Positions 42,214-44,394 of a stretch of 64,000 bases of DNA are shown one piece after another. Position 1 is the stretch's first letter. Each line of letters opens with the position of its first letter. The stretch spans positions 124,001-188,000 of the forward strand of contig JALVJV010000021.1 of the NCBI GenBank assembly GCA_027028145.1, given 5' to 3'. The notes under the pieces are model-generated. The model searched no databases, was not told where the DNA came from, and saw only the letters and a list, made by a program, of their open reading frames with translations. Both the position numbers and the translations under genes were made by a program. Source of the stretch: Archaeoglobaceae archaeon. GTDB taxonomy: Archaea; Halobacteriota; Archaeoglobi; Archaeoglobales; Archaeoglobaceae.

Positions 42214-42600
42214 TTAAACCTTGCACTCCCTAAGCGGAACGAATCTTACGTTGTAAAAGGCGCTCAGCAATCTCTTGTGAAGTTCGGCGATCTTTGTTGA
42301 AGAACCGGAGACTACCAACGCGTTTATGCACTTCTCGTCTATGTGTATGTGCGTGAACTCCTTTATTATGTCCTTAAACTCCTCGATGACCTTAAGAAGT
42401 TGAACGTTATCGTTTGAAATTAGGGTTATGACACCGTAGCATTCATGCGGGGTGAGGTAGTGCACGTGATCTCTTATATACGTTCTTATAGCCTCGCATA
42501 CGAGCTTCGATCTATTTACGTTGAGCTTCTCCGCTAAAACGTCCAAATCGCTCGCTACATCCTCCGGAATCGAGATACCGAATCTCCTCTTCTTAGCCAT
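42214..42600 (-). CDS. NikR-like nickel-responsive regulator family protein
   Basis: 128 residues from the ATG at 42600; the frame extends further but the ATG is the family start. Ribbon-helix-helix KKRRFGISIPEDVASDLDVLAEKLN and ARTYI-like RTYIRDH. The C-terminal ACT-like domain has HIHIDEKC (about residues 92-99), matching two of the nickel ligands and the cysteine of NikR, but the usual fourth histidine in the preceding helix is absent. It is the last gene of a block with a metal ABC transporter, overlapping the permease by 8 bases. Confidence 0.75.
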   Translation of the reverse strand: MAKKRRFGISIPEDVASDLDVLAEKLNVNRSKLVCEAIRTYIRDHVHYLTPHECYGVITLISNDNVQLLKVIEEFKDIIKEFTHIHIDEKCINALVVSGSSTKIAELHKRLLSAFYNVRFVPLRECKV

Positions 42601-43444
42601 GGTAACACCTCTTCGCAACGAATGCAAGAGCGAACATTCCGAACATCAGCAAACCTATGACACCCGAAGGCACCTGATTTATCAGTATCGAGATCTGCAA
42701 GCCGAGTAAACCCGAAAGTATGCTTATAAGGACACTTATAAAAAGCATGCTTTTTGAATCTTTTGCAATCAACATCGCAATTGCCGAAGGAAGCAGTATC
42801 AAGACGTGCTGAAGGACGAAGCCGACTATCTTTATCATCGCAACGGTTGCGATGCCTAAAAGAGTGTAGAGAAGCCAGTCGTAAAGTTTGACGTTTATTC
42901 CAGAAAGAATCGCGCAGTCCCTCTCGATACCTATGCAAACCTGCTCTCTGTAAGTCAAGATCGTCGCCGTGAGGGTTACCACGGCTACAAGAACTGCGTA
43001 ATAAACATCCGTCCAGCTTGCAAGAAGGGGGTCCCCCAAAATTATAGCCCAGAGATCGTAACCAATCGAATATTTTGTAAGAACTAAATACATCGAAATT
43101 ACGCTCAGAGAAGCCGTAAGAGATACGAAAATTGCCGTTGCTACGTCCTCGTCCATTCCCTTGTGAATGGAGTAGCCAACAGCATACAACAAAATCAGCC
43201 CGACTATTACTGCCCATACGTATTCGTTTAGCATTAAATTGGACAGAGGAATCGCAAGAACCACGGCTAACAGAGCTATATGGGATGACGCCGCAGAAAG
43301 GAAGTATAGCCTTCTCGCAGATACGAGCGTGCTTAAGGCACCATACATTAAAGATGCCGACAAAACGATGATAGCCCACTTGGGATACTGATAAACCGTG
43401 ATCGCGGAAACTATAGCCGTAATTACTGCAAGCAGTGTGATCAT
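42593..43444 (-). CDS. Metal ABC transporter permease (ZnuB-like)
   Basis: 283 residues, about eight transmembrane helices (TLLAVITAIVSAITVYQYPKW and VAIFVSLTASLSVISMYLV among them). It is of the zinc/manganese permease family. It is translationally coupled to the binding protein by overlap (43441-43444). Imports a divalent metal with the adjacent proteins. Confidence 0.85.
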   Translation of the reverse strand: MITLLAVITAIVSAITVYQYPKWAIIVLSASLMYGALSTLVSARRLYFLSAASSHIALLAVVLAIPLSNLMLNEYVWAVIVGLILLYAVGYSIHKGMDEDVATAIFVSLTASLSVISMYLVLTKYSIGYDLWAIILGDPLLASWTDVYYAVLVAVVTLTATILTYREQVCIGIERDCAILSGINVKLYDWLLYTLLGIATVAMIKIVGFVLQHVLILLPSAIAMLIAKDSKSMLFISVLISILSGLLGLQISILINQVPSGVIGLLMFGMFALAFVAKRCYHG

Positions 43445-44340
43445 ATCCTCCTCAACTCCACGGCAACGAGGATTCCCAACAAAGCGACCAAAACTCCGAA
43501 ATCCGGACTCTTTTTAGCTTTTCGAAACTTGAGATTGTTGACCTCTTCCGAGATAAACTTAAGCTTCTTCAAGATGCTCCCCCCCTCTATGGGCGAAGGC
43601 ACGACTAACACCGGTATCCCCCTCTCCTCCGCAATGCTCTTAAGCATCTGAGAAGCCGTTGAATTGGTGTCGGTAACGACCACGAGTTGAACGTTCTTCA
43701 TATTCTCGACCGCCCGAACATCCTCCGGCAGTGCCGGGAGTCCCGGTTCTTTGATCAGCAGATGGCGTATGGTTACGTTCAGCCAGCTGACGGCATACTG
43801 AACGACCGGAAGATCCGCAACGGCAAAAGCGTTGAGCTTCTTCGTATTCGACACGATTTCTTCGACTCGCTTACATACAATTTCGGCTCTCTCAATGTAG
43901 TCTCCATTCGGATTCAACTGTGATAGCTTTTTCGCAACGTATCTCAAGAAGACCTCGTAGTTGTGGGGATCGTAGATCGGCATGTGCAAGTTCGGCAAAC
44001 CCGTATCGGGGTTCTTCAAAATCCTAATCCCCGGGATCTTCGGAATCTCAATCAGCTCAGCCTTTATTTCACCAGACTCAACGAGCTCTCTTATCTTTAT
44101 TTCAAACGGCGTGTGGGCGGTGGAGATGATCACGTCCGCACGTTTCAGCGTAGCAACATCCTTAGGGGTGAGTTGATAGTTGTGCGGATCTACTCCGGGC
44201 TTAGTAATCGAGACAACCGTATCGTTCGGAGCGATCAGCTTTAGGTCATACTTAAGATTCGGAAACGTTACGACGACATTCAAACCGTTCGCATTCGAAA
44301 TTAAGAGCGTAAGACCCACCAGAATCAGAATCCATCGCAT
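43441..44340 (-). CDS. Metal ABC transporter substrate-binding protein (ZnuA-like)
   Basis: About 299 residues from the ATG at 44340; the frame starts at a TTG 44382 that overlaps znuC. It has a signal (RWILILVGLTLLISNANG), a metal-ligand region with DPHNYQLTPKD near residue 50 and DPHNYEVFLRY later, and a second hydrophobic C-terminal tail (VLVALLGILVAVEL). The tail suggests membrane anchoring rather than a lipid anchor. Divergent from znuC by a short promoter region. Confidence 0.82.
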   Translation of the reverse strand: MRWILILVGLTLLISNANGLNVVVTFPNLKYDLKLIAPNDTVVSITKPGVDPHNYQLTPKDVATLKRADVIISTAHTPFEIKIRELVESGEIKAELIEIPKIPGIRILKNPDTGLPNLHMPIYDPHNYEVFLRYVAKKLSQLNPNGDYIERAEIVCKRVEEIVSNTKKLNAFAVADLPVVQYAVSWLNVTIRHLLIKEPGLPALPEDVRAVENMKNVQLVVVTDTNSTASQMLKSIAEERGIPVLVVPSPIEGGSILKKLKFISEEVNNLKFRKAKKSPDFGVLVALLGILVAVELRRI

Positions 44341-44353
44341 GACAAAGTTTAAA

Positions 44354-44394
44354 TGTGCACAACTGCTTATAAAATTTATCAATGAGTGTGCACA
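44354..44394. promoter_or_regulatory. Repeated TGTGCACA palindromes in the divergent znuA/znuC promoter
   Basis: TGTGCACA occurs at 44354-44361 and inside GTGTGCACAC at 44386-44395 (core 44387-44394), 33 bases apart, about three helical turns on the same face. Between them lies CTTATAAAATTTA, a TATA box that can serve both directions. The second copy overlaps the first codons of znuC. This looks like a metal-responsive operator. The NikR-like protein encoded at 42.2 kb is the most likely binder. Confidence 0.6.

Follow-up and report, generated by a model that had tools for sequence, protein, structure and literature searches.

Dimers of ribbon-helix-helix (RHH) proteins have two-fold symmetry, and the sequence that one dimer recognises is typically about 8 bp long. 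In the RHH repressor MetJ, one dimer reads an 8-bp palindrome, the met box AGACGTCT, and the boxes are arranged in adjacent tandem. NikR of Escherichia coli, Helicobacter pylori and Pyrococcus horikoshii joins an RHH domain to an ACT-like metal domain. The canonical NikR operator is GTATGA-N16-TCATAC, with half-sites 22 bp or two helical turns apart (PMC7055735). The signal of the delta-proteobacterial NikR regulon, GTGTTAC-[N13/14]-GTAACAC, is found at nikMNQO (PMC545781). Bacterial znuABC is governed by Zur, a Fur-family protein with ATGCAACnnnGTTGCAT-type sites (PMC545781). Little has been mapped of how hyperthermophilic archaea control the uptake of metals. In the literature outside subscription papers, no report was found that joins the 8-bp palindrome TGTGCACA with archaea, and none on NikR-family control of archaeal zinc uptake; priority is unproven.

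The locus described here lies in the window (the whole stretch of 64,000 nucleotides that was analysed). Its TGTGCACA pair is very probably the docking site of a NikR relative for turning metal uptake off. As in canonical NikR systems, there are two separated half-sites at a metal importer, and the regulator has an RHH domain, an ACT-like metal domain and a predicted NikR fold. Canonical half-sites are spaced about 21–22 bp, whereas the half-site here is TGTGCACA and the spacing 32–35 bp in 79 promoters. The regulator also differs from canonical NikR in the loss of His76, the gain of an H-x4-H-x-C motif and its position in a separate clade. In the delta-proteobacterial regulon, too, a regulator of the NikR family is combined with inverted half-sites beside a metal importer, but the half-site is another one, the spacing is about 20–21 bp and the target is nikMNQO instead of znuABC. 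As with bacterial Zur, a znu importer would be repressed by its own metal. Unlike Zur, the operon regulator is of the RHH/NikR_C type and not of the Fur family, and the site does not resemble the Zur boxes of PMC545781. The proposed reading of one 8-bp palindrome per RHH dimer would correspond to MetJ, but the two boxes are three turns apart and not adjacent.

The palindrome pair in the znuA/znuC promoter

Both TGTGCACA palindromes are perfect. They lie 33 bp apart from centre to centre, as the sequence-only reading had described, and are separated by a spacer of 25 bp (Table 1). On the minus strand the gene order is znuA-znuB-nikR with overlapping gene ends, and the NikR-like gene is the last one. 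The same reading had placed the pair around a TATA region shared by znuA and znuC. The near-symmetric TTATAAAATTTAT indeed lies between the sites and could serve either direction; its shared use is presumed, and site 2 is possibly coding. If the ATG at 44382 is the znuC start, site 2 covers codons two to five, and thus the pair is not strictly intergenic. The start candidates ATG 44382 and GTG 44388 are both in or before site 2. In G018, a relative, ZnuC probably starts after site 2. The sequence-only reading had put both sites on one DNA face, three helical turns apart. As a point against the operator reading, 33 bp correspond to 3.1 turns, so that the sites do not share exactly the same phase.

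Table 1. Features of the znu locus (positions in the window).
Feature	Position	Strand	Basis
Putative operator half-element 1, TGTGCACA	44354..44361	.	sequence; conserved in 79 znu promoters
Putative operator half-element 2, TGTGCACA	44387..44394	.	sequence; conserved in 79 znu promoters
TATA-like core TTATAAAATTTAT, A+T-rich, between the sites	44367..44379	.	sequence; promoter role inferred
TTTAAA, alternative TATA element for znuC, abuts site 1	44348..44353	+	sequence; role inferred
znuC-like ABC transporter ATPase, 259 aa	44382..45161	+	Pfam ABC_tran; start codon uncertain
znuA-like metal-binding component of ABC importer, 299 aa from ATG	43441..44340	-	Pfam ZnuA
znuB-like ABC-3 permease, 283 aa	42593..43444	-	Pfam ABC-3
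NikR-like regulator, 128 aa, RHH and diverged NikR_C	42214..42600	-	Pfam RHH_1/RHH_3/NikR_C

In the shuffled window 0.21 TGTGCACA matches are expected, and two matches anywhere were reached in 3 of 100 shuffles. The whole genome (1,518,835 bases, 99.9% complete) contains three copies. Two of these form the pair; the third falls within the coding sequence of a gene for a tungstate/molybdate-type binding protein. Thus TGTGCACA is scarce, given an expectation of about 5 copies from dinucleotide content (scaled from the window shuffles) or about 23 from base composition alone. The chance that two of three genomic copies fall within 50 bp is approximately 2e-4. A search of the whole genome for a wider regulon yielded no further exact TGTGCACA in any promoter. 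Elsewhere in the window, there are no other pairs with up to two mismatches at 30–36 bp.

Conservation of the spaced pair

The pair is present in 79 distinct promoter sequences at divergent znuC/znuA genes of Archaeoglobales and many hyperthermophilic Thermoproteota, five of which are weak and entered with three mismatches. The spacing ranges from 32 to 35 bp. The core TGCA is nearly invariant and departures concentrate at the outer bases. The spacers are unconserved, save for a TATA-like stretch in most relatives.

Among the Archaeoglobales, the exact pair at 33 bp occupies the same promoter in four genomes of the genus and in G018, which belongs to another genus and whose contig ends inside znuB. 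G036 has TGTGCACG...CGTGCACG at 33 bp, and three g4 genomes have near-pairs at 32 bp. Archaeoglobales with the NikR-like gene (g1 and g4) carry the pair or a near-pair; in the same comparison, 14 distant znuA-like loci have neither the gene nor the pair.

When about 85,000 species genomes were scanned blind for the exact N25 pair, 73 stretches were returned. Fourteen archaeal ones (four Archaeoglobales records and ten from Thermoproteota) adjoin a ZnuC homologue at znuC/znuA promoters, and most of them also contain ZnuA, ZnuB and the NikR-like gene. The bacterial matches are scattered, none being at a znu locus. Furthermore, spacers of 12–38 were searched in 214 genomes from the order of a Pyrodictiaceae genome (Thermoproteota), with the reversed pattern as control. 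The exact pair was found in 38 genomes and the control in 0. Leaving out G229, G273 and G236, the pair is located at znuC/znuA in 29 genomes, at a LysE-superfamily-like permease in three and at cbiM (21–22 bp) in three. In G229 and G273 the distance between the pair and the nikR-like gene is about 2 kb. The spacing is 32–35 bp in each of the 29 cases examined at znu.

For an unselected test, 60 regions were retrieved because they contain the nikR-like gene, all of them from genomes that have no exact pair at znu. The divergent znuA/znuC promoter is included in 42 of these regions, and 37 of the 42 promoters have a pair with at most two mismatches, spaced by 32 bp (20 cases), 33 bp (14), 34 bp (1) or 35 bp (2). 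The remaining five lack a clear pair. Such pairs were not found in the 240 kb of flanking sequence (0 hits) and appeared in 1 of 840 shuffles. The random frequency in other promoters that the sequence-only reading had named as evidence against an operator is not observed. A functionless chance doublet has nothing in its favour beyond the shortness of each site. The recurrence with fixed spacing in 79 promoters excludes it, and we rejected it on the contrast of 37 of 42 znu promoters with 0 in 240 kb; its probability is negligible.

The aligned promoters also bear on the possibility that the palindromes form an RNA stem or a cruciform instead of two protein sites. Each site is its own reverse complement, so that the two can pair with each other and enclose a loop of 25 nt. 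However, 32 promoters with one departure keep the partner unchanged, so that pairing is broken or weakened and not compensated; changes that happen to preserve it are found at two loci (L047 and L255). Spacer length and position relative to the TATA element also fit DNA binding better. A stem is highly improbable and was rejected, since the promoters show no compensatory pattern.

The NikR-like regulator

The 128-aa protein scores above the Pfam cut-offs for RHH_3, RHH_1 and NikR_C, with the RHH domain at the N-terminus and NikR_C at the C-terminus. It stays below the cut-offs of both NCBIfam models for NikR (PRK04460, 46.8 bits, cut-off 105; TIGR02793, 24.8, cut-off 175). AlphaFold2 confidently predicts a NikR fold (mean pLDDT 88), and in the PDB the model matches NikR structures best (best E 2.9e-9).

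In the tree, canonical NikR is separated from the NikR-like proteins, which have a clade of their own (support 100/99). The eight members from Archaeoglobales group in a single branch (100/97) that is placed among Thermoproteota sequences; its neighbour, at weak support (81/82), is a Thermoprotei archaeon. This arrangement suggests that the gene was passed to the Archaeoglobales in one transfer. Canonical NikR is also present in all complete Archaeoglobales genomes, and the genome studied here has both types.

The NikR-like proteins have gained the motif H-x4-H-x-C (residues 47–54 of the window protein) between the RHH and ACT domains. Among the 90 NikR-like rows of the alignment, which include one protein of canonical type (L022), His51 and Cys53 are present in 89 and His46 in 86 (reference numbering; His51 and Cys53 are residues 52 and 54 of the window protein). 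None of the 10 canonical rows has these residues; W, G and V/A/R/I occupy the positions. Judging from the fold topology, the motif should be close to the RHH–ACT linker, at the strand end opposite the nickel site. The canonical nickel ligand His76 at the end of the first ACT strand, present in 10 of 10 canonical rows, is lost in the window protein and in most NikR-like rows. The HxH and Cys of the nickel site (H87, H89 and C95) are kept in 86 of the 90 rows. One protein (L079) has lost HxH...C and kept the operator. The DNA-contact strand R-F-[GS]-I-S is similar in the window protein and P. horikoshii NikR. H-x4-H-x-C, the RFG[IV]S strand (residues 6–10 of the window protein) and a TGTGCACA pair at 32–35 bp characterize the znu-linked NikR-like proteins, and all of them are found at this locus.

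Association of regulator and pair

The pair is nearly always accompanied by the NikR-like gene, which is usually the last gene of a znuA-znuB-nikR operon. In three genomes (G077–G079) it lies outside the znu operon, and an exact TGTGCACA pair at 32 bp is found before a permease gene with the motif HGATPDEHTW (L180, L181 and L182, about 1501–1540, directly upstream of the HGATPDEHTWPITFSY permease). Thus the operator goes with the regulator rather than with the znu genes. The permease, weakly related to the LysE superfamily, is probably a further metal permease of the same regulator. The co-occurrence in both phyla, the fixed spacing and the way in which the pair tracks the unlinked gene give comparative support to the earlier suggestion that the pair is read by the NikR-family protein encoded at 42.2 kb.

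DtxR proteins often read operators close to metal transporters. The pair may belong to another metalloregulator, e.g. of the DtxR/MntR family, in which case the NikR-like gene would be a bystander within the operon. DtxR-like genes are present in these genomes, and in several genomes one lies beside the unlinked nikR-like gene. The pair, on the other hand, accompanies the NikR-like gene in two phyla and shifts to another permease when this gene is unlinked, and the gene forms a coherent clade in the tree. Furthermore, paired 8-bp palindromes with a tolerance of 32–35 bp would be unlike one longer DtxR palindrome. We consider a DtxR/MntR-type reader improbable.

Unlinked nikR-like genes are located directly beside a DtxR-like regulator gene at L223, L228 and L246–L249, suggesting a two-regulator metal locus. 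A counter-case is given by exact TGTGCACA pairs with 21–22 bp spacing that are found upstream of cbiM, at its start, in G170, G173 and G174 (L192, L193 and L194, about 1501–1530). These genomes have no clear member of the NikR-like clade and present the half-site at the canonical NikR spacing; another factor may therefore also read TGTGCACA. In G399, from another order of the class, an exact pair is spaced by 42 bp or four turns (L308, 1501–1550), and no metal gene was recognised adjoining it.

Proposed mechanism

It is highly likely that the NikR-like protein has its operator in this pair, with one RHH dimer at each site, a tetramer over the TATA region and metal-dependent co-repression. Given the symmetry of the RHH dimer and its recognition of about 8 bp, it is simplest to assume that each dimer binds one TGTGCACA and that two dimers make up the tetramer. 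The C-terminal ACT-like metal domains would join the two dimers across about three helical turns (32–35 bp). The tetramer would thus straddle the TATA region and keep TBP, TFB and RNA polymerase off both divergent promoters. As the genes under control serve metal import, the corepressor is most likely the metal itself, which when bound to the regulator would favour the DNA-bound state. With plentiful metal, znuA-znuB-nikR and znuC would be co-repressed and the regulator would repress itself. We infer binding, the tetramer, repression and the role of metal as corepressor. The earlier suggestion of a tetrameric reader of the NikR type holds as to the family. The protein is, however, a divergent paralogue with changed ligands, and its proposed span of three turns instead of the canonical two would require a different domain arrangement.

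The regulating metal

ABC-3/ZnuA-type importers usually carry Zn, Mn or Fe. Three His are invariant or nearly so in the ZnuA-like binding protein (68–69 of 69 relatives), but the fourth ligand is atypical, so that the binding protein points to no single metal. Its closest solved relative is the polyspecific YfeA. Zinc is favoured by the importer type, the near-invariant His and the presence of a separate NikR and CbiM. Given the rest of the explanation, the chance that zinc is the metal of the regulator is about even. Manganese or iron could also be the metal.

Alternatively, the NikR-like protein may read the pair as an ordinary nickel sensor at a shifted operator, the importer being one for nickel or cobalt. 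This is a variant of the main explanation and not exclusive of it. The NikR family, the retained HxH...C of the nickel site and the association of the pair with the LysE-like permease are consistent with nickel or cobalt, as is the same half-site at canonical spacing (21–22 bp) at cbiM, a cobalt/nickel ECF gene, in G170, G173 and G174. The loss of His76 of the square-planar site in nearly all members, together with the gain of H-x4-H-x-C, argues against it. So do the separate canonical NikR and CbiM of the same genome, the usual Zn, Mn or Fe cargo of such importers and the relationship to YfeA. We regard nickel or cobalt as rather unlikely.

The full proposal is that a widespread group of archaeal zinc-uptake repressors arose from NikR, with an H-x4-H-x-C site, the TGTGCACA half-site, a three-turn operator and one transfer to the Archaeoglobales; we advance it tentatively, at a little less than even confidence. 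If true, the nickel site was replaced by a site between the DNA-binding and metal domains, and the operator was lengthened from two to three helical turns, the same tetramer architecture spanning a divergent promoter. The protein would then be the main zinc-uptake regulator of many Desulfurococcales-like archaea, passed once to the Archaeoglobales. The comparison supplies a candidate regulator together with its exact putative operator, and a promoter architecture that is conserved between the two phyla. As a natural case of a metal sensor with both ligands and operator geometry changed, it is relevant to how the binding of metal in NikR is coupled to the distance that separates the DNA-binding domains.

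Related promoter elements

The upstream regions of cbiM in some Archaeoglobales (L266, L279 and L280) contain TGTTA-N16-TAACA (21 bp), which resembles the delta-proteobacterial NikR signal and is a probable canonical NikR operator in archaea. The canonical operator was rejected for the znu site, as these cbiM promoters carry that element instead. In the genome studied here, the cbiM promoter (L296, about 510–560; C1 near 43020) has repeated TTGAT/ATCAA palindromes (AATTTGATCTCGGATCAAGTAAACTTGATT) that are common to relatives. Mycobacterial genomes (L085, L093, L096, L097, L103, L104, L118 and L131) repeatedly carry gattTGTGCACA-N25-TGTGCACAaatc, a recurrent element of a separate kind that has a GAGCG..CGCTC palindrome inside.
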